This document shows positions 22,554 through 40,548 of a stretch of DNA of 42,403 nt, in pieces. The notes beneath the pieces are model-generated. The model had not been told where the DNA came from. It made no database searches and saw only the letters and a program-made list of their open reading frames with translations. Position 1 is the stretch's first letter; every line of letters begins with the position of its first letter. The position numbers were made by a program, and so were the translations under genes. Location: assembly GCA_027485485.1 (NCBI GenBank), contig JAIXQY010000234.1, forward strand, positions 1-42,403. The letters are read 5' to 3'. Source of the stretch: Sphingomonadales bacterium (lineage in GTDB: Bacteria > Pseudomonadota > Alphaproteobacteria > Sphingomonadales > Sphingomonadaceae).

Positions 22554-22997
22554 ATGGGCCGCGCTGAAAATTCCTTCAGCACACACCGAAAGCGGGCGCT
22601 ATCCCTCGGTGTAATCTTGATCCTGCCCTTGGCCGGATGTGAGCAACCCGATCCGCTTGTGGTTTCCTCTATAGCCTCTCCTGATGGTCAACATGTGATC
22701 TGGGTAACAGAGCAAGATGGCGGACTGGGATCTGACGTGACCTATATTCATCTCTCAGTATCTGGTGGCATGCCCGAACCGAGCAATGTCATTCTCAGTT
22801 CCCCCGAATGCGAGGGTGTACGTGTAGGCTGGTATGGCAATGACCGTGTCATAATTTCATACGACGAGATTTTTGGCCGTTTTCAATCAAAACTTCGTGC
22901 ATATGTCCCAACTGTTGCATTAATAAATAATACAAACTTGAAGAGACTGAGTTTTGATCTCGTCAATTCTGTCGTTGTGCGCTGTGATCCATATTAA
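22554..22997 (+). CDS. Hypothetical lipoprotein in a lower-GC segment
   Basis: ...RALSLGVILILPLAGCEQPDP: lipobox LAGC; no recognised family. Confidence 0.6.
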   Translation: MGRAENSFSTHRKRALSLGVILILPLAGCEQPDPLVVSSIASPDGQHVIWVTEQDGGLGSDVTYIHLSVSGGMPEPSNVILSSPECEGVRVGWYGNDRVIISYDEIFGRFQSKLRAYVPTVALINNTNLKRLSFDLVNSVVVRCDPY

Positions 22998-24018
22998 TCA
23001 TCGCGGCAGCTCCAAATCCCCGTCGCCCCGTGCTTGACACGGGTGTGGATTCACAACCGAAGTGCAACGGGTTGAAGGTTTCGGCTGGGGTTTTGAAGCC
23101 GAGGCATTTTCTGGGGGTGTTGTTGTATGCGTTGAGGATGGCGTCGATGTGTTCGGCTGGCAAGGTTGTTGGGTCGGTTTTTCTGGGCAGGTCGCGTCTG
23201 AGGCGTCCGATGGCGTTTTCGATGCCGCCTTTTTGCCATGGGGCGCGCGGGTCGCAGAAGTAGGGTTTGATGCCGATCTGGCTGGCGAGGCGCTGGTGCT
23301 TGCTGAACTCGCCGCCGTTGTCGAAGGTGATGGATTGGCGCAGCGGCGGGGCCAACGTGGTGAGCAGTGCTGCGAGGCTGTCCGCCACGCTGTCGGCCCT
23401 GATGCGGGTCTGCGGCATGGCGATGGTGAGCCGCGAGTGGCGTTCGTGGGCGATGAGCACGGCCGGGCCTGGGCTTGAGAACAGCATGCAGTCGGCCTCC
23501 CAGTGGCCCGGGCTGTCGCGCGTTGCGATGTGGGCGGGACGATCATGGATGGATGTTTTGCCGGCGCTGCGCGGCCAACCGCCCTTGGTGCGCCAGCCGC
23601 GCTTGATCTTGGCGCGCGGCAGGTAGAGCCGCCATTGCGTGATGTTGGTGCGCTTGAGCTGGGCATAGATGAAGCGGTAGATCGTCTCGTGGCTGATGAT
23701 GGCCCGCCCTGCTTCGCGGGCGAGCCGGCCGGCAACCTGTTCGGGCGACCAACCTACAGCCAGGCGATCAAGCACGCTGCCGCGCAAGGCATCGTCGCGT
23801 TCGAGCCGGGAGCCAGTCCAGCGCCGCGCTGCCGCTTGGGCCTGAGCATAGGCTGGCCGGTAACCGACCTGCTTGCCCGTATTGCGCTTCAGCTCGCGGG
23901 CAATCGTCGACGGCTGGCGATCCAGAGCTGCAGCGATTTGCCGGATCGATTGCCCGGCTTCGCGAAGCCGGGCAATCGAACAGCGCTCTTCAAGCGATAG
24001 CTGGGCATATCTCGACAT
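22963..24018 (-). CDS. IS30 family transposase
   Basis: MSRYAQLSLEERCSIARLREAGQSIRQIAAALDRQPSTIARELKRN..., GHWEADCM, TFDNGGEFSKHQ, PWQKGGIENAIGRLRRDLP: IS30 HTH and DDE motifs. Confidence 0.95.
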   Translation of the reverse strand: MSRYAQLSLEERCSIARLREAGQSIRQIAAALDRQPSTIARELKRNTGKQVGYRPAYAQAQAAARRWTGSRLERDDALRGSVLDRLAVGWSPEQVAGRLAREAGRAIISHETIYRFIYAQLKRTNITQWRLYLPRAKIKRGWRTKGGWPRSAGKTSIHDRPAHIATRDSPGHWEADCMLFSSPGPAVLIAHERHSRLTIAMPQTRIRADSVADSLAALLTTLAPPLRQSITFDNGGEFSKHQRLASQIGIKPYFCDPRAPWQKGGIENAIGRLRRDLPRKTDPTTLPAEHIDAILNAYNNTPRKCLGFKTPAETFNPLHFGCESTPVSSTGRRGFGAAAMINMDHSAQRQN

Positions 24019-24522: not shown

Positions 24523-24814
24523 CGTCCGCTCTTCACCGCAGGGCAGACCTGCAGCCGCGTACGGATAATGGCAGGCAGGGCCGCATTGCTCCACTGTCCT
24601 ACATGGGCGAATCCTGTCATGCTGACCATGATCGCTGTCATTAGGCAGTGCCCAGAACCAAGCAAAAATAAGGCCAAATCGCACGAGAATCGTCAAATGA
24701 GTCAAAACTGACGCCGAATACACTGCCATCGGATGGCGCGAGTGCCGGCCATCCACGAAAAAATCTGCTCTTTCTCAGATCAGCACAAGCCGCGCCGCGA
24801 GGGCAGCGCAGGAT

Positions 24815-24853
24815 CGTTCGGGTGCAGGGTCTGCGACCCTGCCCGCCGGAGGC
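24815..24853 (-). terminator. Terminator-like hairpin, inverted copy of the 22463 element
   Basis: GCAGGGTC-TGC-GACCCTGC 8-bp stem flanked by CCGCCGGAGGC; downstream (minus strand) of the methyltransferase gene. Confidence 0.7.
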
Positions 24854-24873
24854 AATCCTTGTTCTTCAACCCC

Positions 24874-25608
24874 TTACGGCTTCACGAAGCGATAGTAGAA
24901 CCGGCTGGTCTTCCCCCGCAGGGCCGGATCGAACACCAGTTTCGTCGGATCATCGCCGGTCATTTCCAGGATCGGCACGCTGCCGGCGAAGCGGAAGCCG
25001 GCGCGGGCCATGTCGGCTTTCACCACCGCGGCGTCGATGCGGTGGGTCTTGTCGGCCTGGGCGCGGCTGTCCATGCCGGGCACGCCGTGGTGATCGATGA
25101 TGATGACGACGCCGCCGGGTTTCAGCGCGGCGAACAGGCGGGCGTTATAGGCGTCCACCTCGGTGCGCGGATATTTGAACTTCTCGCTCTGCCAGTAAAG
25201 ATCATGATAGGTCAGGTGATAGAAGGCGGCATCGAGTTGTTCGGGCATGGGCGTGTCGCCGGGTGCGCCAACGATCAGTTCGACATTGCGCTGGCGCTTT
25301 TTCAGCGCGTCCCAGGCGGCGGCGGTCTTGGGATCGTCCATGTAGCTGACGGGTTCGACTGCGAAGACCTTGCCCTTGGGTCCGACATGGCGGGCCAGCA
25401 ATTCGGTGTAATAGCCTTGGCCGGCCATCACATCCATCACCCGGGCGCCCGGCCGGATCAGGCTTTGCGCCAGCACCGCGGCCGGCTGGCGGCCGGCGTC
25501 CAGCGCCACCATGGCGTCCGGCCGGCCCGGCGCAGTGACCACATCGGCCGGTGCGGCGGCGATCAACAGGCTGGCCAGACCGGCCAGCAACAGCGTGCGC
25601 TTCATCAT
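24874..25608 (-). CDS. Exported class I SAM-dependent methyltransferase-like protein
   Basis: MMKRTLLLAGLASLLIAAAPADVV signal peptide; ARVMDVMAGQGYYTELLARHVGPKGKVFAVEP motif I region; LKPGGVVIIIDHHG. Confidence 0.82.
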   Translation of the reverse strand: MMKRTLLLAGLASLLIAAAPADVVTAPGRPDAMVALDAGRQPAAVLAQSLIRPGARVMDVMAGQGYYTELLARHVGPKGKVFAVEPVSYMDDPKTAAAWDALKKRQRNVELIVGAPGDTPMPEQLDAAFYHLTYHDLYWQSEKFKYPRTEVDAYNARLFAALKPGGVVIIIDHHGVPGMDSRAQADKTHRIDAAVVKADMARAGFRFAGSVPILEMTGDDPTKLVFDPALRGKTSRFYYRFVKP

Positions 25609-25687
25609 CGTCTCTCCCCTGATTTTGCCCGATGCTGCCACAATGTGGCGCGCTTGACCATCACCGCAGCCACCGCCACTGTGCGCC

Positions 25688-26110
25688 GTGATGACGCCCG
25701 AAAGCCTGTTCAGCCTTGCCAGTGCCGCCGTCTTGCCCGGCTGGTTGGCGCTGGCCTTTGCACCGCTGGCCCGGGCGCGGCTGGTGCTGCTGGCCAGGGT
25801 GATCGCCGTGCTGCTGTCGGGCCTCTATGTCTCCCTGCTGGTCACCGGTCTGGCCGGCGATGGTCCGCCGGCGGGCGCCAGTTTCAACACGCTGGACGGC
25901 GTGCGCCTGCTGCTCTCCAGCCCGCAGGCGCTGCTGGCCGGCTGGGTGCATTATCTGGTGTTCGATCTGTGGGTGGGCAGTTGGGAGGCGGAGGACAACA
26001 GCGTGCCGCACTGGCTGCTGCTGCCGTGCCTGGCGCTCACCTTCGTCGCCGGCCCCACCGGGCTGCTGCTCTATCATCTGGTGAAGGCCGGCCGAAAGCG
26101 GCGGGCATGA
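25688..26110 (+). CDS. ABA4-like family (DUF4281) membrane protein
   Basis: ESLFSLASAAVLPGWLALAFAP...LLAGWVHYLVFDLWVGSWEAED...PHWLLLPCLALTFVAGPTGLLLYHL. Confidence 0.85.
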   Translation: MMTPESLFSLASAAVLPGWLALAFAPLARARLVLLARVIAVLLSGLYVSLLVTGLAGDGPPAGASFNTLDGVRLLLSSPQALLAGWVHYLVFDLWVGSWEAEDNSVPHWLLLPCLALTFVAGPTGLLLYHLVKAGRKRRA

Positions 26111-26298
26111 GCGAAGCCCGCACCGTGGCCAGCCCGTGCACCAACGTCTGCCGCATCGACAAGCGGACCGGCTGGTGCGAAGGCTGCAAGCGCTCGCTGG
26201 ACGAGATCGGCCGCTGGCCGCACGCCGATGATGACGAACGCCGCGCCATCCTGGCCGGGTTGCGGCACCGGGTGGTGAAGAAGGGTTTGTGGCGATGA
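26107..26298 (+). CDS. DUF1289 domain-containing protein
   Basis: SPCTNVCRIDKRTGWCEGCKRSLDEIGRW: DUF1289 Cys pattern. Confidence 0.88.
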   Translation: MSEARTVASPCTNVCRIDKRTGWCEGCKRSLDEIGRWPHADDDERRAILAGLRHRVVKKGLWR

Positions 26299-29137: not shown

Positions 29138-31072
29138 ATGACACCGCATCTCATCGCACTGCTGCTTGCCAGCACCGCCGCCCAACCTGCTGCTGCCCTG
29201 CCTCAGGCCTCCCCGCAAACCCAGGCGGACAATGCGGCGCTGGCCGCGACACTGAATTGGGCAGATGAACAGGATTTCGAATTTGCCACGCGCGGCTTTC
29301 TGGGCAGCATCCCCGATGGCAAGATCAGGGATGCCAAGGGCGCGGTGCTGCGCGATCTGGCCGATGAGGCGCAGTTCACCGGACCAGCCCCGGCCACGGT
29401 GAACCCCAGCCTGTGGCGCAACGCGACGCTGGTGGCCAAACATGGCCTGTTTCAGGTGGCCGATGGGATCTGGCAGGTGCGCGGGCTCGATCTGGCCAAC
29501 ATGACGATCATCCGCGGCCAGAGCGGCTGGATCATCATCGATCCGCTGACCGGCGCCGAATCGGCCAGAGCGGCCATGCAGCTTGTCACCGAAAAACTGG
29601 GCCAGCGGCCGGTGGTGGCGGTGATCTACACCCACAGCCATGTTGATCATTTCGGCGGTGTGCTGGGCGTGGTGAACCCGGCCGATGTGGCGGCCGGCAA
29701 GGTGGCAATCTTCGCGCCGGAGGGTTTCATGGCGCATGCGGTTTCCGAGAATGTGATCGCCGGCCCTGCCATGCTGCGCCGCGCTGTCTACATGTTCGGC
29801 ACCAGCCTGCCGCACAATGCCACCGGCCACGTCTCATCCGGCCTGTCGTCGCTCAACACGCCGGGCACCTATGGCCTGATCCCGCCGACTGACAGCATCA
29901 CGGCGGCGAACAGCAACCGCGTGGTGGACGGGGTGGAGATCCAGTTTCAGCTGACGCCCAACACCGAAGCGCCCTCGGAAATGAATCTCTATCTGCCGGC
30001 GTGGAAGGCGCTGTGCCTGGCCGAAAATGCCAATGCCACCATGCACAATCTGCTCACGCCGCGCGGCGCCGAAGTGCGCGATGCCAAGGGCTGGGCGGAT
30101 TATCTGGTGGAGGCGCGGCGGCGCTGGGGCGGTGAGGCGGACGTGTTGTTCACCAGCCATTTCTGGCCGCGCTGGGGCAAGGCGCACATCAGCGATTATC
30201 TGCTGCGCCACGCCCAGGCCTATGCCTTTGTGCACAACGAAAGCGTGCGGCTGATGAACCAGGGCCTGAACGCGGTCGAGATTGGGGAGGCGATCAAGCT
30301 GCCGGAACCGCTGGCCAAGGCCTGGTTCAACCGCCCCAATTACGGCAGCCTGAAATTCAACGCCCGCGCCGTTTATCAACGCTATCTGGGTGCGTTCGAT
30401 GGCGATCCGGCCAGTCTCGATCCGTTGCCGCGCGCCGACCTCGCGCCGCGACTGGTGGCGCAGATGGGTGGCGCCAAGAAGGTGCTGTCCGCTGGCAAGG
30501 CGGCGGCTGCCAAGGGCGATGACCGCTGGGCTGCCACGCTGCTGTCCACGCTGGTGCGCGCTGCGCCCGATACGCCAGGCGCCAAGGCGGCGCTGGCTAG
30601 CGTGTATCGGCAGCTGGCCTTTCGGGCGGAAGCCGCGCCGTGGCGCAACTTCTATCTGACCGGGGCACAGGAACTGGAACAGGGGATCAGGCCCAGCCAG
30701 CCCGCCAGCGCCGCCGGCATTGCCGCCAATCTCACCGTGTCGATGCTGCTGGACAGCATGAGCGTGCGGCTGGTGCCGGACCGCGCCATTGCGCCGATGA
30801 CCATCGCGTTCGAGATTCCGGACGCCAAGGAGCGCCACCTTGTCAGCATCGGCAACGGCGTGATGCTGCACGAACAAGGCGTGGCCGATGCCGCGCAGGC
30901 GACGCTGGTGGTGCCGCGCCGGGCGCTGATCGGCCTGATCGGCGGGGCGGTGAAGGCGCCGGAGCTGATGGCGGCCGGCCAGTTGCAGATGAAGGGCGAT
31001 CTGACTGTGCTGCAGCGCTTCATGGGCCTGTTCCAGCCGCCGAAGCCGGATTTTCCGCTGGTGGCACCTTAA
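29138..31072 (+). CDS. Alkyl/aryl sulfatase, MBL-fold SdsA1-like
   Basis: GWIIIDPLTGAESARAAMQLVTEKLGQRPVVAVIYTHSHVDHFGGVLGV; SCP2-like C-terminal domain; exported. Confidence 0.92.
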   Translation: MTPHLIALLLASTAAQPAAALPQASPQTQADNAALAATLNWADEQDFEFATRGFLGSIPDGKIRDAKGAVLRDLADEAQFTGPAPATVNPSLWRNATLVAKHGLFQVADGIWQVRGLDLANMTIIRGQSGWIIIDPLTGAESARAAMQLVTEKLGQRPVVAVIYTHSHVDHFGGVLGVVNPADVAAGKVAIFAPEGFMAHAVSENVIAGPAMLRRAVYMFGTSLPHNATGHVSSGLSSLNTPGTYGLIPPTDSITAANSNRVVDGVEIQFQLTPNTEAPSEMNLYLPAWKALCLAENANATMHNLLTPRGAEVRDAKGWADYLVEARRRWGGEADVLFTSHFWPRWGKAHISDYLLRHAQAYAFVHNESVRLMNQGLNAVEIGEAIKLPEPLAKAWFNRPNYGSLKFNARAVYQRYLGAFDGDPASLDPLPRADLAPRLVAQMGGAKKVLSAGKAAAAKGDDRWAATLLSTLVRAAPDTPGAKAALASVYRQLAFRAEAAPWRNFYLTGAQELEQGIRPSQPASAAGIAANLTVSMLLDSMSVRLVPDRAIAPMTIAFEIPDAKERHLVSIGNGVMLHEQGVADAAQATLVVPRRALIGLIGGAVKAPELMAAGQLQMKGDLTVLQRFMGLFQPPKPDFPLVAP

Positions 31073-31189: not shown

Positions 31190-34100
31190 CTATTTCCTGA
31201 GCGGTGACCAGCCGGCCATGTCCACCCGGTCGGTCACGCGATAGGGCTGGCCATTCTCGCCCACGAAGAAGCGCTCGGTTTCCTTGCGATTGAACGGGCG
31301 TGATCCCAGCCGGCCCAGGATGGCGATCTGGCCGCCGGTCTCATCGACGGCGCGGTCGCGGTCCAGCCCCTTGGATACCGACAGCGCCGGGCGGGCCGTG
31401 CGGGCAAAGGCGATGAGCTCCGGCACCGGCTTGGGCGAGAAGCCATAGAAATTGGGCTGGCTGTCTGGGCTGGTCAGCTGCAGCAGCTTCACGCCGTTCT
31501 TGCCATCCGCCACATAGGCAAACAGCGTCGCGTTGGTGCTGGCCACCACCACATCCTCGGCATCGTTCAGCGTGCCGCCCGCCGTGAAGCGCTGGTACAG
31601 CCTGGGTGCCAGTGGCTTCTTGATGTCCACGATCACCAGCCCCTCGCCCTTGGCCGCGACATAGGCATAGGTGCGCGCCAGATAGAATTTGCGCGCATTG
31701 GCGATCGGCAGCGTGGCTTCCGGATGGTGGATGGGCCGGGACAGATCGGCGATGTCGAACAGCTCCAGGCCGTTTGCCGTCGTCACCCACAGATAGCGGA
31801 ACTGCACGGCGCTGGCCCGCGCGTCATTCAATGGCAGGCTGGCGGCCAGTTTTGGCGCCTTGGGATTATCGAGATTCACCACCACCAGCCCGCGCGGCGT
31901 GGTGACATAGGCCATGTACCCGGCCAGCGTGATGTGGCGGGCACCGTTCAGCACGCCGTCCGGGTTCCACGCCGTCTTGCCGCCGTCCAGACGCTCACGC
32001 TTCAGGAAATTGTTGCGCGGTTCGCCATCGGTGAGCGTGTCGACATTCACCAGCACAAGGCCTTCGACGGCATCGGTCACCACCGCATAGCGGTAGATCT
32101 CGTGCAATTTCTGTTCCTGGTTATAGCCGGCGAGCGGATCGGCCAGCGGCTTGCCGGCGGCGCGGGCGTCCTGCTCGCCGACCATCTTGTCGTTGCGCGG
32201 CACCGAGATGGATTGGGTGGTGGCAATCGCCATGCAGGTGGCGTTGGCGGTTTTCACCTGGGCGTCATGGCCCAAGGCCGAGAATGGCGATTTGACGATG
32301 CGTTCCGAAACGCCCTTGTTCGACAGATTGGCGATATCATAGGCGACAAAGCCACCCTTGCCTTCGGCAACATAGAGATATTCGCCGCGATTCTGGATGC
32401 AGCGCACCTCGCCCGAAGTGCCCTGGGTGATGTTGCGGATCTCCTCGGTCGGGTTGGTTTCGCCCGAAAGCTTCTTGTCGAATATGCGCCCGCGGTTCCA
32501 GTTGATCAGCTCGCGCTTGTTCTTCTCGACATGCAGCTTCCAGAAATCCGGATAGGCATATTTGTGCAAGTAAGAGCCAAACACCGCCTGCGGTTCGCCA
32601 AACTCCGTCACGCGCACCGCTTCCACGGCGCGATCGAGGCCGAAGAAGGCGTGCATGCCGACGAAATTGATGAAGTTGGTGCCCTGCAGAGTCAGCTGCG
32701 CCAGCACGGCGTTGTTGTCGTCATCCTCGCTCACATGGCAATCGGTGCAGGTCTTGGTTTCCTGCGTCCGAACAGTGTGCGGGAAGTGCGGCGCAAAGGC
32801 CTGGGATGAGAAGCCCGACGCGGCAATCGGCGTCTGCTGCACATAGATCCGCTCGCGGTTGATGTTGGTGGAGGTGAGGATAAGCGCCGAGCTGGAGCGG
32901 ATCGGCGTAATGATGCCGCCCTTGCTGGTCTGATGGCGGCCAAGCTGGAAAATCTCGTCGCGGGCGACCTGCGGGTTGTAGGTCGCGAAATTGCGCGTTT
33001 CCTGCTCCTCATATTTCTGGGTCTTGGATTTCCAGTTGGCTTCGATCGGCAGGTGGCAGCCGCCGCAGCTGGTGGTCCAACTGGTGTGGCAGGCGAAACA
33101 GGCCATGTTGTCGTCCTTGTGGGCGCGGTCTCCCACGCCGGGGCCGAAATTCATCTTGCCGCCGGTGGCTGCCAGCGTGCCCACCAGCTTGGCGCGCGCA
33201 GCCTTGGCGTTGAAATCGGGATGCTCGCGATTGACGCTGTCCTTCACCAGCTTGACGCGCCACACCAAGGCCGGATCACTGGCCGACCGTTGCAGCAAAA
33301 TGCGGCGGCCGGCAGCATCCTGGCTCCATTCAAAGCGCAGCCGGCCATCGGGGTTGCGGATGCCCGACAGATCAGTGCCCGGCGGCGGCGCGGCAAGGTT
33401 CGATGTGCGCAAGCTGGGATAGGCATCGGCGGTGCCGTGGCAATCCTTGCAGCCGATCTCCACGCTGTTGGCCACTTCGCCATGGATGAAGCCATTGCCA
33501 TGGGCATCCTGGGCGAAATGGCAATCGGCGCACTGCATGCCCACTTCGGTGTGGATATCCATCAGATGCACAGCCTTGCCGGGCTGGCCTGGTCCGGGCA
33601 CCGCGGCCGGCTTGGTGAATTGCGGCGCACCGGCCTTGCGGAATTTTTCCGGATCATCATTGGCAACAATATGGGCGCTATCGGTGCCCCAGGTCGCCAT
33701 GTTGCCGCCGGCATCGAGCAGATTGCCTTCGCGGTCGCGCTTGTACACGGCGCGGAAATTCCAGCCATGGCCGTGATAATCGGCGAACTGGGTGTCCTTC
33801 ATCTTGTCGTTGCGGTCGTTCACGGTGCGCAGGAAATCCAGATCGGACCAAGAACCATGCGCCGCTGCGCCTTCCGGGTTGCGATCATTGGTTTCGCGCA
33901 CTTCGGCCGCGGTTGGGTAACGCTGGCGCTTGAACAGCCGGTCATACTCGGCATCGCTCATGCCCGGCGGCTTGGGATAGGGATTGTCCTTGCCCGGCCA
34001 CATGCGCGGCGCGTCGCTTTCATAATCCCACATCGTGTAGCCATAATAGGTGTTCACGAACATGTTGGGCTGGTGCATGTGGCAATTCATGCACAGGCTG

Positions 34101-35395
34101 GACGGCATGGCGCGGGTGAAGCTGTGCTTGATCGGGTGGCCGGGCTCGTCCTTCTTGATGGTCGGATCGGCGGTCTGCGTCTGCCCGTCCCGGCCGGCAG
34201 CGGCATACACGGATGAGTGCCGCACTTCGCGATCATTGGCATAGACGATGTGGCAGGAACCACAGCCCGAGGTGCGATAATCGCCGGGCTGATCATTGGT
34301 GCCCATGAACCAGGTGAAGGGATCGTTGAGGCGGGTCTTGTGGATGTTGATCACCGGCACCGCGATGCGCAGACCGGTGCCGGGGCCGCGGTTGGACTGG
34401 CGGATATCCGGCCGGCCCGGCTCTTCCAGGCGCTGGATGGCGCCAAGCGAATTGGGCAGGCCGATTTCCGGGAAGGTGGGGTTGATGTTGCGGCCGCCGC
34501 GTTCGAACACCCGGAAAATGTCACCGGGCGGGATCACCTGCCAGGCCGGCAGCGGGGCAAGAAACGGCAAGGAGCCGCGCGCCTTTTCGGCATCAGACAG
34601 CACGCCAACCCCGCCGGCGCCGGGGCTGAACATCAGGGCAGGCAGGCTGTTGTCATGATGGGCGCCGCCCTTGCCGCCATGGGCCTCGCCATGACCGTCC
34701 CCGTGTCCGTTGTCATGTTTCAGGCCAATTTCGCCATGGCCCGATGCGTCGCCATTCCACGCGCCCAACATGCCGGCCGCCTGGCCCGGCCGGAAATAGG
34801 CTTCGCCCAGCACATAATTCTTATAGGGCAAGATGCCGTTGTTGTAGGACGCGCCGCCAAACAGCATGGCGCCGGTGGCCATCAGGCTGCGTTCGGCGCG
34901 TTCGATGATTTCCATGTGGCAGGCGCCGCAGGCATCGCGCGCGGCGCGATAGTCTGACGGGTTCACGAAGCGCACGAACTCCGGCGATTCCCGATTCAGC
35001 AGCGTATAGCCGCGCTTGGGATTGGCCGATGACGGGAAATGCCAGGCTTCCGGAAACGTTGGCAGCACATGGGCTTCGTCGCGCAATTTCTTGTAATTGG
35101 GGTCAGTGGCGGCCAGCGCAGCCGGCGCGATGATGTGGGAATCACCGCCATGGCAATCGGTGCAGCCCAGCACCACCGATTTGGGCGCATGCATCGTCGC
35201 TTCATCGCCGTCGGTGTGGCAGCTGATGCAGCCGGCGGATTTGGCATCGGCCAGTTCCTGCGTCTGCCATTTCGGCGCCGCCGGCGCGCGCACCCGGGCA
35301 TAATCGCGTGCCACCGGCTTTTCACCTTCCGACGCGATGGCCACCCCCATCAACGGCAGGATCAGCAGCAGGGCAAGACGCTTCCACATCATCAA
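31190..35395 (-). CDS. Decaheme c-type cytochrome fused to an LVIVD-like beta-propeller
   Basis: 1401 aa; Sec-type signal; ten CXXCH motifs (CISCH, CTDCH, CGACH, CGSCH, CMNCH, CADCH, CKDCH, CFACH, CGGCH, CTDCH); C-terminal repeats GLVVVNLDNPKAPKL, GLELFDIADLSRPI, GLVIVDIKKPLAPRL. Confidence 0.92.
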   Translation of the reverse strand: MMMWKRLALLLILPLMGVAIASEGEKPVARDYARVRAPAAPKWQTQELADAKSAGCISCHTDGDEATMHAPKSVVLGCTDCHGGDSHIIAPAALAATDPNYKKLRDEAHVLPTFPEAWHFPSSANPKRGYTLLNRESPEFVRFVNPSDYRAARDACGACHMEIIERAERSLMATGAMLFGGASYNNGILPYKNYVLGEAYFRPGQAAGMLGAWNGDASGHGEIGLKHDNGHGDGHGEAHGGKGGAHHDNSLPALMFSPGAGGVGVLSDAEKARGSLPFLAPLPAWQVIPPGDIFRVFERGGRNINPTFPEIGLPNSLGAIQRLEEPGRPDIRQSNRGPGTGLRIAVPVINIHKTRLNDPFTWFMGTNDQPGDYRTSGCGSCHIVYANDREVRHSSVYAAAGRDGQTQTADPTIKKDEPGHPIKHSFTRAMPSSLCMNCHMHQPNMFVNTYYGYTMWDYESDAPRMWPGKDNPYPKPPGMSDAEYDRLFKRQRYPTAAEVRETNDRNPEGAAAHGSWSDLDFLRTVNDRNDKMKDTQFADYHGHGWNFRAVYKRDREGNLLDAGGNMATWGTDSAHIVANDDPEKFRKAGAPQFTKPAAVPGPGQPGKAVHLMDIHTEVGMQCADCHFAQDAHGNGFIHGEVANSVEIGCKDCHGTADAYPSLRTSNLAAPPPGTDLSGIRNPDGRLRFEWSQDAAGRRILLQRSASDPALVWRVKLVKDSVNREHPDFNAKAARAKLVGTLAATGGKMNFGPGVGDRAHKDDNMACFACHTSWTTSCGGCHLPIEANWKSKTQKYEEQETRNFATYNPQVARDEIFQLGRHQTSKGGIITPIRSSSALILTSTNINRERIYVQQTPIAASGFSSQAFAPHFPHTVRTQETKTCTDCHVSEDDDNNAVLAQLTLQGTNFINFVGMHAFFGLDRAVEAVRVTEFGEPQAVFGSYLHKYAYPDFWKLHVEKNKRELINWNRGRIFDKKLSGETNPTEEIRNITQGTSGEVRCIQNRGEYLYVAEGKGGFVAYDIANLSNKGVSERIVKSPFSALGHDAQVKTANATCMAIATTQSISVPRNDKMVGEQDARAAGKPLADPLAGYNQEQKLHEIYRYAVVTDAVEGLVLVNVDTLTDGEPRNNFLKRERLDGGKTAWNPDGVLNGARHITLAGYMAYVTTPRGLVVVNLDNPKAPKLAASLPLNDARASAVQFRYLWVTTANGLELFDIADLSRPIHHPEATLPIANARKFYLARTYAYVAAKGEGLVIVDIKKPLAPRLYQRFTAGGTLNDAEDVVVASTNATLFAYVADGKNGVKLLQLTSPDSQPNFYGFSPKPVPELIAFARTARPALSVSKGLDRDRAVDETGGQIAILGRLGSRPFNRKETERFFVGENGQPYRVTDRVDMAGWSPLRK

Positions 35396-37251
35396 TAAGC
35401 CAGCACAGCGTTGAACAGCACCGAATAATAATGGCCGGTGCGGGGGGAATTGGTGAACAGGTCACGGAAGCCGGCGCCGGGCTTCAGCATCGCGCCGGAC
35501 AGGCGGAACACCAGATTCTGGTTGAACTGCGGGCGATAGGTGGCTGCCGTTGAAAAGTCCCAGCCGATATCCTTGGGGATACTGCCTTCGACGCGCAGCG
35601 CCTGCAGCGTGGCCGTGGTGGCAAACCACAGATGGTTGACGTTCCCGCTGATCCGCAGCTCGGGCAAGATGTCGAAATCGGCGCCGGCGCCCAGCAACAT
35701 GGTGCCGGGGTTGGTGAAGTTGGCCTGACCCTGTTCCTTTGAGGACCTGAGATCGTTCAAGATACCGTTGCGGCTGTTCACCGAAATGGCGCGGCCGCCG
35801 CCGGCGAACGGGATGGTCTGGCGCACCCAGTAACTTGTGTCGGCGCCGGCGAACTGCGGGTTTTCGAAGATCGCCGCAAAGCCGCTGTCCACATCATCAT
35901 GCGGGTTGGAATCGCCCGAGGCATAAAGTGCCGAGGCGCGGAAGCGGGCCCAGCCGCGATCATAGCTCGGCTCGATGGCGACGAACCAGCTGTTGATCCT
36001 GGCGCGCCGGTCCGTGAAGATGTTGTTGCGGTTGGTGCCGGTGGCGTGGGTGGCCGAAAGCGACAGGTTGATGCGGCCGATATGGCCGTCGGCGTTGTAG
36101 CTCAGATAGACCACATCATAGCTGCGGCCGCGCAAGCTGCCGAGCAGCGCCGGGCGCACCGGGAAGCCGTTGGTATCAACCTGAATGTCGTTCCGCTCAC
36201 GGTTCAGGTTCCAGATGGCGCTGACCTGGCTGGTCATCCCCGGCAGCGGCAAATCCTGGCGATAGAGATTGGCAACGAACAGCGCATCGCTGCGCGGGGA
36301 ACGCAGCACCGCGTTCAGGCCGCTGTTGCTGTCCTTCTCCAACCGCCAGAAGGCCGCGAGGTTGTATTGAATGCGATTGTTGTCGCGGTTGCCGAACAGG
36401 CGCACGCCCAGTTGGTTGTCCTGAAACAGGAAACCCCGGAAATCGCTGGAAAAGGGCTGGATGCCGATGCGGATCGAGTCGAAATCATAGCGGTCTGATG
36501 TGTTGCGCAAGTGATAATCCAGGAACAATTCCTGGACGCCCACGAACGCATCGGTGCGCAGGGAGCGCTTGGATGGCAGCACCGAGAGCACCCGCTGTTC
36601 CGGCACATCGACATGATTGACGTTGAAGGCGATGGCGGCGCGCAGCTCATATTCGGGCGGCTTGAACGCCGTGCTGCCCTTGGTCAGCGCCGCACCCAGG
36701 ATGAAGGTCTGCGCGAACACCTCGCTATACTGCCGGCCGAACACATCATTGTTGCCCGGCCGCTCGGTCGTCTGCACGCCGACGGGGATGGGAAAGCTGC
36801 GCGGTTCGGCCAGCGTGTCGGAAATGGCGGTGAGTTGCAGGAACAGATCATGGGTGCCGCAGATCGGCCGGTCACCCTTCAACGTGTTCTGATTATAAGG
36901 ATCTTTCCAGTTGGACTTGACCAGCCCCAGCGTTTCGATCAGCCGCCAGCGATCGGGCACCGGCAGATGGTCTGACGGGAAATCGCCTTGTTTCGGCCAG
37001 GCCACGGCGCCCTGGTTGGCCTGCACCACCGGATCCCACGTGCTGGGTCCGCCAGGGCCGGGCACGCGGCGGCCGGGCAGATTGCCGGCATCGGGATCAC
37101 CCGGCGTTGCGGCTTCCTCGGCCGGCAAGCGGTCCTTGGGCGGAGCGACCTTGGCGTAACAGTCAAACCATTTGCCGAACGGCTTGGCCATGGCCGGGGC
37201 TGCGCTGCCCAGCAGCGCGATGAGCATCAGGGCCCGCATCTCAGCGCGCAT
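35392..37251 (-). CDS. Probable outer-membrane beta-barrel (porin-like) protein
   Basis: Signal MRALMLIALLGSAAPAMA; alternating amphipathic strands, terminal ...TGHYYSVLFNAVLAY; DPYNQNTLKGDRPI segment; ATGA overlap with the decaheme gene. Confidence 0.75.
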   Translation of the reverse strand: MRAEMRALMLIALLGSAAPAMAKPFGKWFDCYAKVAPPKDRLPAEEAATPGDPDAGNLPGRRVPGPGGPSTWDPVVQANQGAVAWPKQGDFPSDHLPVPDRWRLIETLGLVKSNWKDPYNQNTLKGDRPICGTHDLFLQLTAISDTLAEPRSFPIPVGVQTTERPGNNDVFGRQYSEVFAQTFILGAALTKGSTAFKPPEYELRAAIAFNVNHVDVPEQRVLSVLPSKRSLRTDAFVGVQELFLDYHLRNTSDRYDFDSIRIGIQPFSSDFRGFLFQDNQLGVRLFGNRDNNRIQYNLAAFWRLEKDSNSGLNAVLRSPRSDALFVANLYRQDLPLPGMTSQVSAIWNLNRERNDIQVDTNGFPVRPALLGSLRGRSYDVVYLSYNADGHIGRINLSLSATHATGTNRNNIFTDRRARINSWFVAIEPSYDRGWARFRASALYASGDSNPHDDVDSGFAAIFENPQFAGADTSYWVRQTIPFAGGGRAISVNSRNGILNDLRSSKEQGQANFTNPGTMLLGAGADFDILPELRISGNVNHLWFATTATLQALRVEGSIPKDIGWDFSTAATYRPQFNQNLVFRLSGAMLKPGAGFRDLFTNSPRTGHYYSVLFNAVLAY

Positions 37252-39193
37252 GGCAGACATTGTTCTCAGCCGTGTCGAGGAAGGGCGCAAACGGGCAGCC
37301 AACAAAGCGCAGCCGCACCTTGGTGCCGGTCGTCAGCGGCACCTCCACCTGATCAGACCGGATGCTGGCCGGTGGCAGGCCAATGCTGCCGCCCAGCCGC
37401 AGGCCGGCATTGCTGGTGCCGAGGAAGCTGATCATGTCATCCTGATCAATACCGTCGCCCGACACGCCGATGGCCCCCACCAGCACATTGCCGCGATACA
37501 CGGGCACCGCGCCGGGAAAGATCTGGATGCCATTGGCCAGCCGGTTCTGGCCACCGGGCGTGTTCGGCAGGAAGGTGCATTGCCGCGGATCGCCGCCGCC
37601 CAGCACCTGCACCAGATTCTGCAGGATCAGCGCCGATTGCAGCCCGGTCGAGAAGGGCGACCAGCCGTTGATGTCGCGGCTCAGCGCGCCCGGCGGCCGC
37701 CCGGCCTCACCATCGGGGAAATAGGGGCGGGCGATGTTGCCGATGGCGCGGTTGGAGACGCCGACCTGGCCGGTGAGGAAGCCGGCGCTGCCGAAGAAGG
37801 CGTTGGTCTTGGTCACGAAATCGCGGACGTTGGCATCGGGCGCGCCGGCTGCCGTCACCACCGCACCCAGTTCCGCCGCGGCCCGGGCGTTGGAGAAGAA
37901 GGCCGCGGTGCGTGCCTTTTGCAGCGACACATCGATGCCGAAGATCGGCGCATCGGGTGAGCGCACCAGCCCGAGCGCCACCCCGCGCGTGTCCACCAGG
38001 CTGATAGACACCTGCGCCCGGCTGTCCAGCGGCTGGCGGATCTGCGCGCGGGCGCGGGCCATGATGGCAAAGGCTTCTTCCAATATGGCGCGAGCTTCGG
38101 CGGCGGTGAGCGGCTGCGCCACATCGCCGGCATCGCTGGCAGCACGCACCGGATAGCGATTGGCGCCGCTGCCATCGGACAACACAAAGGCATCGGGATG
38201 GTTGAACTCAGCCGCGGTGGCCGCGCGCACACCGCTGGCCTCGCTGCCATAAGCTGTGCCGGCGGCGATGCTGGCGGCATTGAAGCCGGCCACGGCCACC
38301 AAGGCGCCGGTCAGGCTGGCAAAGCTGGGCGCGGCAGCAGGGTTGGAGCGCAGGCCCGCCGCCACCGCATCGCTGTACCGCAGCAGCGTGCCGTCCACCG
38401 AAATCCGCTCGGCGCGGATGCTGGCCGGAGCCTCGAAACCGGTGGTGGCGGCAAGCGCGATATGCTCTTCGGCATCGACATCGGTGTCGGTCACTTCGGC
38501 ATCAAAGCCGTAATCGCCATCGGCCATGATGCCGACACCGCCCACCGCCACGCCATTCTTGTAGAGCGGGAAACCACCAGGATCGGCCGCCAGCCCCAAG
38601 GGCGAGCGCTTCGGCCCGATGAACGGGCTGCCGACCCCAAAGCGGGTGACAAGATCGGAACAGGGCAGTTGCGAAAACTGCACGCCATAGAGCGGGCCGG
38701 ATTCCAGCCCGACTGTGCGGGCCGACGGCGGGAAATGCGGCTGCACGATCATCGAGGCCGTGCGGGTGGAAAAGGCATTGCCGCCCGACGACAGATAGGC
38801 GCCGGTGATCGCCTTGGCGATGGCGGCCAGTTCGGCCGGCACCGTCACCCCCTGCGCATCGATGTTGGCGCCGTTGGCATTGGCCCGCGTTGTCGCCGTC
38901 GCCCGCGCGCCGGCCATGCGATAGACGGCGAGCACATTGCCCACCCGGTCCACCACGGCGATCACCGCCGGCAAGCCGCGCGCGCTGGCCTCGGCGGCCG
39001 CGCGGGTGATGATGGACTGCACATCGGCGCTGGTCAGCGCCTCGGCCGCCGGGCGGGTGAAGACGCTGGCCGGGGCAACCGAAGGCGCAGGCGTCGGGCT
39101 TACGGCGGCCGGGGTGGGCGGCGCGCTGCCGCCGCCACAGCCGGCCAACAACAGCGCCGCCCCCAGCGTGATGATGCCGGTGGCGCGGATCAT
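37241..39193 (-). CDS. Lipoprotein with apparently duplicated GlcG/HbpS-like (DUF336) heme-binding-type domains
   Basis: Lipobox LLLAGCGGGS; LTSADVQSIITRAAAEASARGLPAVIAVVDRVGNVLAVYRM and LTAAEARAILEEAFAIMARARAQIRQPLDSRAQVSISLVDTRGVALGLVRSPDAPIFGIDVSLQKARTAAFF. Confidence 0.85.
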   Translation of the reverse strand: MIRATGIITLGAALLLAGCGGGSAPPTPAAVSPTPAPSVAPASVFTRPAAEALTSADVQSIITRAAAEASARGLPAVIAVVDRVGNVLAVYRMAGARATATTRANANGANIDAQGVTVPAELAAIAKAITGAYLSSGGNAFSTRTASMIVQPHFPPSARTVGLESGPLYGVQFSQLPCSDLVTRFGVGSPFIGPKRSPLGLAADPGGFPLYKNGVAVGGVGIMADGDYGFDAEVTDTDVDAEEHIALAATTGFEAPASIRAERISVDGTLLRYSDAVAAGLRSNPAAAPSFASLTGALVAVAGFNAASIAAGTAYGSEASGVRAATAAEFNHPDAFVLSDGSGANRYPVRAASDAGDVAQPLTAAEARAILEEAFAIMARARAQIRQPLDSRAQVSISLVDTRGVALGLVRSPDAPIFGIDVSLQKARTAAFFSNARAAAELGAVVTAAGAPDANVRDFVTKTNAFFGSAGFLTGQVGVSNRAIGNIARPYFPDGEAGRPPGALSRDINGWSPFSTGLQSALILQNLVQVLGGGDPRQCTFLPNTPGGQNRLANGIQIFPGAVPVYRGNVLVGAIGVSGDGIDQDDMISFLGTSNAGLRLGGSIGLPPASIRSDQVEVPLTTGTKVRLRFVGCPFAPFLDTAENNVCHAR

Positions 39194-40548
39194 TTCAGCG
39201 CCCGCGCCCGTGCCGCGATCTGGCCCAGCGCGGCACGGAAGGCCAGCGCATCCCAGCGGTTGGCATCGCGCGCCAGCGCATAGGCACGATCCAGATCGGG
39301 CCGCAGCGCCAGCGCCGCGCCGCGATCCACCTGGCCGGCGGCGACGAGCGCGTTCAACAGCGTGTCTGCCGCCATCACCGCCTGGGCGCCGCCCTGATAA
39401 TCGGTGTAGGCACCAGCATTGGCCGCCAGCACGGCATCGATCAGCGCAAAGGTCTGCGCCCGGTCAAAACTCGCCCCGGCAAAGCGTTTGGCAAGATTTG
39501 CCGCCGTGGCCTTCAGGGTCGCCGCTGCCTTCATTGCCCCGGCACGGTCACCGCCCAAGGCGGCATGGAAGGCGCGCGACTGGCTTTCCAGACTGCGCGC
39601 CAGGTCCGGCGCGGCCACGCGGGCGGCGGCGACCAGCATGATCATCTGTTCATCATTCCATACCGGCTGGCCCGGTGGAATCGGCCGCCAGCCATTGCTG
39701 CGCGCCACCAGCGGCGCGGCCGGATCATCGCTGAACGTGCGGTGGCAGCTGCGGCAATCAAAGAAATAATAATCGGGGCCGGTCACGCTGCCCGACGCCG
39801 CCGGCAGCAGGCTCAAGGCCCGCTCCACCGCCAGCGCCTGGCCCACCGCCCAGGTCTTCACACCGCCGGCCACGCCCTTGCGGGCGCGATAATCAGCGTC
39901 TTCATCATGGTGGGATTGCAGGCTGGTGAACAGATCCAGTTCAAACGCGACGCGCGGGTGGCCGGCGGCCATGATGCGGTGAAACACGAACTGGCCCGGC
40001 TTGTCCGATCCGAAATGGCAATCCAGGCAGACCCCGGCGCGCACGGCGGGATTGTTCATCGCCCACATGCCCTTGGCCATATTGTCGGCATGGCTGGCCT
40101 TCACGCTGGCATGACTGGCCAGCCAGTTCACCGACCCGCCGTGGCAGGCTTCGCAGCCGACGCCATCACTCTGTTGCCATTTCGGCCCGCGCACCGGGGC
40201 GGGATCGCCGTGGCAATTGATGCATTCGGCGCTGGCCGCCACATTGGCGATACCCAGCCGTTTGCCGATGGCCTGGGCGCGGGGCTCGTTCAGCACCTTC
40301 CAGGCCCGCGAATGGACCCCGGTCAGGCTGGCCGGGTTGCTCCATGTGAGCACTTCATTCTGGCGCACGCGCGGGCCGGTGGCTTCCTGCCGGCCATGGC
40401 AGGTGGAACCGGCACAGGTGGCCACGCCCTGATGCAAGGCACGATCATGCGGGGCAGAGACCGCCGGCGCGCCCAGCACCAGCATGGCCATCACGGCCAG
40501 AAACCGCGCAAACCGGCTGATGCATGCAGCCAATGCCACAGTTGTCAT
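39190..40548 (-). CDS. Multiheme c-type cytochrome (cytochrome c554-like)
   Basis: CAGSTCH (CX4CH), CINCH, CEACH, CLDCH, CRSCH motifs after a signal peptide; overlaps the start of the GlcG-like gene. Confidence 0.9.
   Translation of the reverse strand: MTTVALAACISRFARFLAVMAMLVLGAPAVSAPHDRALHQGVATCAGSTCHGRQEATGPRVRQNEVLTWSNPASLTGVHSRAWKVLNEPRAQAIGKRLGIANVAASAECINCHGDPAPVRGPKWQQSDGVGCEACHGGSVNWLASHASVKASHADNMAKGMWAMNNPAVRAGVCLDCHFGSDKPGQFVFHRIMAAGHPRVAFELDLFTSLQSHHDEDADYRARKGVAGGVKTWAVGQALAVERALSLLPAASGSVTGPDYYFFDCRSCHRTFSDDPAAPLVARSNGWRPIPPGQPVWNDEQMIMLVAAARVAAPDLARSLESQSRAFHAALGGDRAGAMKAAATLKATAANLAKRFAGASFDRAQTFALIDAVLAANAGAYTDYQGGAQAVMAADTLLNALVAAGQVDRGAALALRPDLDRAYALARDANRWDALAFRAALGQIAARARALK

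Follow-up and report, generated by a model that had tools for sequence, protein, structure and literature searches.

A conserved multiheme cytochrome and beta-barrel locus of Sphingomonadales as the probable outer segment of an NAD(P)H-fed electron-export chain

Porin-cytochrome conduits of the MtrCAB type contain MtrB-type barrels of 26-28 strands which enclose a 10-heme protein; surface cytochromes usually diverge fast, and multiheme and porin parts also serve Fe(II) oxidation in the Pio and Mto systems. The locus analysed here, which encodes two multiheme cytochromes, a GlcG/HbpS-domain protein and an outer-membrane beta-barrel, lies in a 42,403-nucleotide (nt) stretch of DNA (the window; contig JAIXQY010000234.1, assembly GCA_027485485.1) from a Sphingomonadales bacterium. 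Among described systems its part list is most like that of the Geobacter extHIJKLMNOPQS (selenite/tellurite) cluster, in which a porin, 5-heme and 10/12-heme cytochromes, a cytochrome b and an Fe-S subunit are encoded in one conserved cluster (PMC5877670); the same source gives a predicted 28 strands for an MtrB-type barrel.

On balance, the four genes of the window probably form the periplasmic and outer-membrane segment of a seven-protein, cyclic-nucleotide-gated chain for electron export from NAD(P)H to the outer membrane. Gene content, operon structure, co-occurrence, domain content and the fold of the barrel were computed, and from these we infer the direction of flow, the order of the carriers, the gating and the location of the 10-heme protein. 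No description of the system was found in the open-licence literature searched (LVIVD/multiheme, sphingomonad extracellular electron transfer, FHA with multiheme and CHASE2, decaheme with Novosphingobium), and the main text of a survey of outer-membrane multiheme proteins (PMC11475568) mentions none of the searched host taxa.

Co-occurrence of the four genes with an inner-membrane module

The barrel was present at full length in 75 of 301 Sphingomonadales genomes; a 76th match, of 68 amino acids (aa) in genome G048 (E 3e-4), contains stops and was discarded as a spurious fragment. The order and strand of the four genes were kept in 39 of 40 Sphingomonadales loci from other genomes, so the arrangement is not due to chance, and the co-occurrence in other genomes by which the original prediction was to be checked was indeed seen. 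The sole exception was genome G250, whose glcG sits on another contig. When not adjacent to the core, glcG was located elsewhere in every genome tested, and the same was true of the pentaheme gene, which was found in 9/9 genomes tested, including 7 with the gene away from the core. The four genes recur in Caulobacteraceae/Phenylobacterium, and the named hosts are Sandarakinorhabdus, Polymorphobacter, Sphingobium, Novosphingobium, Sphingomonas, Sphingopyxis, Erythrobacter, Pontixanthobacter, Tsuneonella, Phenylobacterium and Caulobacter. The nearest named isolates belong to Sandarakinorhabdus (loci L091-L093; 87-88% identity of the barrel), so that the window most likely derives from a Sandarakinorhabdus-like bacterium. 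Certain Sphingobium strains carry the system on replicons of 0.9-1.3 Mb.

Within other alphaproteobacterial families (L195-L211) the core of glcG, barrel and 10-heme genes is embedded in a larger cluster with genes for an inner-membrane module of three proteins. The first, a flavoprotein of ~800 aa, combines FAD/NAD(P) oxidoreductase domains with a pair of cyclic-nucleotide-binding (CNB) domains and with a ferredoxin region in which 16 cysteines are invariant and which carries four [4Fe-4S] motifs. Its profile matches were to YpdA, the tandem CNB domains of PKA/PKG regulatory proteins and HycB-type ferredoxins; each of these represents a domain type found in the flavoprotein, whereas the flavoprotein fuses such domains in one electron-transfer subunit. 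The second, a membrane protein of ~285 aa (cytochrome b), has invariant histidines and a weak resemblance to cytochrome b561. The third, a decaheme protein, has an N-terminal FHA-like region, a single transmembrane helix and 10 CXXCH motifs. A role of the FHA-like domain as a phosphothreonine reader is not claimed, as the copy in the window's own genome gave a weak score.

In G952, whose low-GC genome belongs to another class of the phylum, the seven genes lie in a single co-directional run: those for the flavoprotein and cytochrome b come first, then the FHA-like decaheme, GlcG and barrel genes, and last the 10-heme/LVIVD gene and the pentaheme gene. The run is followed by genes for a TPR protein, a FecR protein, a large protein of cadherin/Ig repeats, a protein with a metallo-beta-lactamase fold and a CHASE2 cyclase. 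The genome of the window is fragmented, with the flavoprotein gene on contig C80 and those for the decaheme protein and cytochrome b on C136, in each case at contig ends, and this arrangement fits that of the close relative G124. The flavoprotein of this genome retains all 16 Fe-S cysteines, and in both CNB domains the phosphate-binding cassettes (GEVGLISGRRRGATI, GEMAVIDGKPRTATV) are intact, as looked for in a cyclic-nucleotide-gated enzyme.

Among the 301 Sphingomonadales genomes, the 75 with the flavoprotein were precisely those with the barrel, and no genome had one alone (Fisher p 8e-73, kinship ignored); the distribution, patchy over 24 of 80 genera, states this coupling more robustly than the p-value. 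Linkage does not explain the match, because the two loci are 0.05-1.9 Mb apart in at least 9 of the 75 genomes. NapC/NirT (PF03264) had no match in the window's genome (96% complete), while the E. coli control was positive. Such a quinol oxidase, noted by the original prediction as missing from the window, is likewise not detected in the genome, but the electron source left open there has a candidate in the NAD(P)H-type flavoprotein, cytochrome b and decaheme module, which co-occurs perfectly.

Several other genes were observed near the module. Cytochrome c maturation genes (ccmF/H/G/I-type) adjoin the flavoprotein gene in Sandarakinorhabdus (L229:3221-7664 (-), L231:4405-7439 (-)), and homologues of ccmH/G-type genes lie near it in L232:6481-7592 (-). 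In 8 loci (L199, L202-L208; e.g. L203:12309-12755 (-)) the FHA-like decaheme gene and glcG are separated by the gene for a conserved exported protein of ~150 aa that matched nothing in Pfam or NCBIfam. A calcineurin-like phosphoesterase gene often flanks the FHA-like decaheme gene (L035:3662-4513 (+), L224:3-698 (-), L229:13316-14170 (+)), and does so in the window's genome too.

Properties of the four encoded proteins

The large cytochrome carries its 10 heme motifs in an N-terminal domain, which is followed towards the C-terminus by propeller-type LVIVD repeats (Pfam LVIVD, 1.8e-15); having a signal peptide without a lipobox, it is predicted to be exported. All 10 CXXCH motifs were invariant in the aligned set, and a further 14 histidines were conserved at ≥90% (69 homologues). 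Weak similarity was found to ExtM (72.6 bits, 2e-20) and ExtN (5e-9). Of the 5 parts measured over 16 matched loci, the 10-heme protein was the most conserved (mean pairwise identity 0.67), followed by the barrel (0.61), GlcG (0.58), the pentaheme protein (0.475) and the FHA-like decaheme protein (0.40); a value of 0.66 was obtained for the flavoprotein from a smaller set of pairs. The presumed carriers are variable and both presumed ends constrained, which is the pattern expected when the entry enzyme and the terminal reductase of a chain have defined partners or substrates, and the top conservation of the 10-heme protein fits its candidacy as that reductase. The tellurite reductase of the aerobic anoxygenic phototroph Erythromonas ursincola was set aside as a counterpart, since the subunits of 62 and 55 kDa given for the purified enzyme (PMC5488091) are a poor fit to the 10-heme protein.

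The barrel was modelled with AlphaFold2 from a 52-row alignment (predicted local distance difference test (pLDDT) 79, predicted template modelling score (pTM) 0.79). The model has a disordered N-terminus and 18 long strands, the barrel part being mostly above pLDDT 85, and bears out the assignment of this protein as a putative outer-membrane barrel. A 72-residue insertion between barrel strands (residues 445-516) is among the best-conserved parts in the conservation map. A Foldseek search with the model placed AlgE first (3e-17) and OprD/Occ porins next. The window barrel thus shares its predicted fold with the AlgE alginate exporter and OprD/Occ porins, but differs from them in having ~8-13% identity, a long conserved insertion and a score under the Pfam Alginate_exp (PF13372) gathering cut-off (14.2 vs 25.2 bits); 6 of the 52 family members match PF13372 at E 0.1. 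PDB sequence searches with the barrel and with the large cytochrome gave no matches. As modelled, the barrel is of the 18-strand AlgE/OprD type and not of the large MtrB type.

The original prediction had counted 4 heme motifs in the c554-like protein; there are 5, comprising 4 CXXCH and the CX4CH motif CAGSTCH. The protein matched Pfam Cytochrome_C554 (1.9e-8) and, by profile, cytochrome c554 (1bvb, 3.9e-7), and is by sequence a predicted periplasmic c-type cytochrome distantly related to cytochrome c554. It is partially homologous to the Nitrosomonas protein, but is twice as long, has 5 motifs including CX4CH and occurs in another gene context. In S. limnophila DSM 17366 (L033:12570-13891 (-)) the pentaheme gene is split across two reading frames at ~residue 145, which is either a draft error or a real frameshift.

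GlcG belongs to the HbpS-like family (PF03928; 1.1e-21 over three stretches, 77.6 bits against a gathering score of 25), and its PDB profile matches were to the EfgA/GlcG/HbpS family. The tandem domains and lipobox predicted for the window's protein stood, but most relatives outside Sphingomonadales and Caulobacterales have an ordinary signal peptide, and the lipid anchor is therefore not general for the family.

The four open reading frames were confirmed where they had been placed, at 31190-40548 (Table 1). The predicted overlaps between neighbours also held (4, 11 and 1 nt), that between glcG and the barrel gene being 11 nt with the barrel starting at ATG 37251; the start at 35395 previously given for the large cytochrome is a TTG, which is possible, but less likely than the ATG at 35392.

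Table 1. Features of the four-gene locus, in window coordinates
Feature	Position	Strand	Details
Pentaheme cytochrome gene	39190..40548	(-)	452 aa, signal peptide
Tandem HbpS/GlcG-domain lipoprotein gene (glcG)	37241..39193	(-)	650 aa, lipobox LLLAGC
Outer-membrane beta-barrel gene	35392..37251	(-)	619 aa, ATG start 37251
Large 10-heme/LVIVD cytochrome gene	31190..35392	(-)	1400 aa, ATG start 35392
ATGA overlap, pentaheme stop/glcG start	39190..39193	(-)	4 nt; translational coupling
Barrel stop TGA	35392..35394	(-)	1-nt overlap with large-cytochrome ATG (TGATG)
Non-canonical heme-attachment motif CAGSTCH (CX4CH)	40396..40416	(-)	Invariant across family alignment
LVIVD-repeat region (approximate)	31391..32398	(-)	Limits inferred from alignment; best Pfam stretch 31586-31669

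Elsewhere in the window, an SdsA-type alkyl sulfatase gene (Alkyl_sulf_dimr/C; 29138-31072 (+)) is convergent with the operon. This gene, its upstream thioesterase gene and the LuxR/LolA genes on the opposite flank were in place in 4 same-genus loci; the neighbourhood was not kept in the remaining loci read. An IS30-type transposase gene (HTH_38 and rve; 22963-24018 (-)) lies ~7 kb from the 3' end of the operon, and a 521-aa open reading frame (24733-26298 (+)) has DUF1289 at its C-terminus and a long N-terminal part without assignment.

The proposed chain and its alternatives

In the proposed chain the cytoplasmic flavoprotein, whose FAD/NAD(P) domains are related to YpdA/thioredoxin reductase, would oxidise NAD(P)H, and its four [4Fe-4S] clusters would pass electrons to the membrane cytochrome b and the inner-membrane-anchored decaheme protein. 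The pentaheme cytochrome would then ferry electrons over the periplasm to the 10-heme/LVIVD protein, which would work alongside the 18-strand barrel and the GlcG/HbpS protein at the outer membrane and may be the terminal reductase. Export is the best-supported direction, since NAD(P)H is the only recognisable entry and the genome has no NapC/NirT. The two tandem CNB domains would turn the chain on or off; such gating is plausible given that both pockets keep the phosphate-binding cassette in the window's genome. Genes for a CHASE2-type cyclase and a FecR-domain protein lie beside the system in many genomes (L038:2514-5759, L249:12169-14388 (-), L192:4974-6221 (-)), as in G952, and these recurrent neighbours suggest a dedicated second-messenger input.

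Several points weigh against this interpretation. All evidence for the members of the chain is computational, and direct measurement of co-occurrence covered the barrel and the flavoprotein, the remaining parts being checked in subsets. The flavoprotein could accept instead of donate electrons, and the 18-strand barrel offers no evident electron path over the outer membrane. The model of the 10-heme domain reached only pLDDT 49.5 and was not used for fold comparison. The CHASE2 cyclase was rejected as a universal part, as no close homologue of it was found in the window's genome (matches at ~33% identity).

A variant of the proposed chain, which we regard as a real if lesser possibility, has no electrons crossing the outer membrane: the 10-heme protein would be a reductase, either periplasmic or associated with the outer membrane, whose small-molecule or polymeric substrate would be imported or exported by the AlgE-like barrel. 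The AlgE/OprD fold is that of substrate-specific channels, the large cytochrome and the 72-residue insertion of the barrel are very highly conserved, and the weak ExtM/ExtN similarity points the same way, as does ExtI, the porin of the cytochrome-rich Geobacter cluster, for which a selenite channel has been proposed (PMC5877670). No catalytic motif was recognised in the cytochrome, however, and the 10-heme-domain model was too poor for a search for an open heme.

An MtrCAB-type conduit, in which the barrel would sheathe the pentaheme cytochrome and pass electrons to a surface-exposed 10-heme/propeller protein, has in its favour the same part list (barrel, periplasmic multiheme and large exported multiheme proteins) and the tight co-occurrence of these parts. 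It is nevertheless unlikely: the large cytochrome lacks a lipobox and is the most conserved part measured, against the usual fast divergence of surface cytochromes, and AlgE/OprD-like barrels are, in known relatives, too narrow to sheathe a 5- or 10-heme protein in the manner of MtrB, so that the classical arrangement of a 'cytochrome inside a porin' seems doubtful here. Of the trans-envelope conduit originally proposed, a multi-component envelope electron-transfer system is retained; the MtrB-like geometry is unsupported.

Inward flow, with the 10-heme protein oxidising an extracellular donor (e.g. Fe(II), Mn(II) or a sulfur compound) and feeding respiration or reducing NAD(P)+, would suit hosts that are mostly aerobes, several of them phototrophic, and has a precedent in the part types of the Pio and Mto systems; it appears improbable, as electrons would have to move uphill to reach NAD(P)+ from c-type hemes, the genome lacks a NapC-like quinone-reactive protein and export is the better fit for an NAD(P)H flavoprotein gated by cyclic nucleotides. 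Action of the HbpS-like protein, barrel and cytochromes in heme acquisition or degradation, the alternative heme conduit of the original prediction, is very improbable, having nothing in its favour beyond the name of the PF03928 domain (some of whose PDB relatives, the EfgA/GlcG proteins, are not named as heme proteins) and facing 25 predicted covalent hemes over three proteins, an obligate NAD(P)H/Fe-S/cytochrome b partner and the lack of any TonB-dependent receptor match.

Sphingomonads, Caulobacteraceae and their relatives are abundant aerobes not usually regarded as electron exporters, and a conserved 25-heme chain in about a quarter of the sampled Sphingomonadales genomes represents a sizeable and apparently undescribed redox function. 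We tentatively suggest that the proposed export chain may constitute a new class in ordinary aerobic alphaproteobacteria, a second-messenger-gated electron valve fed by cytoplasmic NAD(P)H and leading to the outer membrane or the outside. Direct second-messenger control over the entry enzyme of an electron-transfer chain would, if true, be a new principle, and the cultured hosts (Sphingobium, Novosphingobium, Sphingopyxis, Sandarakinorhabdus) make the system testable.

Comparison with described systems

The original prediction had not recognised the locus as MtrCAB-, Omb/Omc- or Pio-type, and this judgement is supported. The window system shares a barrel and periplasmic and exported multiheme cytochromes with MtrCAB and other porin-cytochrome conduits, but has an 18-strand barrel with AlgE/OprD as top matches in place of one of 26-28 strands enclosing a multiheme cytochrome, and a pentaheme protein in place of the decaheme inner cytochrome MtrA/DmsE (TIGR03508, 10.6 bits against a cut-off of 192). 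The large cytochrome carries the LVIVD fusion and does not qualify as an OmcA/MtrC surface lipoprotein (Pfam MtrC/MtrF domain, 20.8 against 30 bits; no lipobox), and the NAD(P)H module stands where MtrCAB has CymA and quinol (no PF03264 match). In all, four features that define MtrCAB-type systems are lacking.

Beyond the weak similarity to ExtM and ExtN, no homologous pathway was found that is characterised and has a known substrate, and the ExtM equivalog scores (45.9 and 72.6 bits) are far below the cut-off of 800. Parts like those of the ext cluster do occur together in one cluster in L192/L250 and L195-L211, which is an analogy of parts and not homology of each. The window system has NAD(P)H-flavin, cyclic-nucleotide and ferredoxin domains where Ext has the Rieske protein ExtO and the rhodanese ExtH, neither type of part being recognised in the clusters read here; Ext, in turn, has no reported LVIVD, GlcG or FHA-like parts. 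The system would work like an envelope electron-export chain and stands apart from the named ones.

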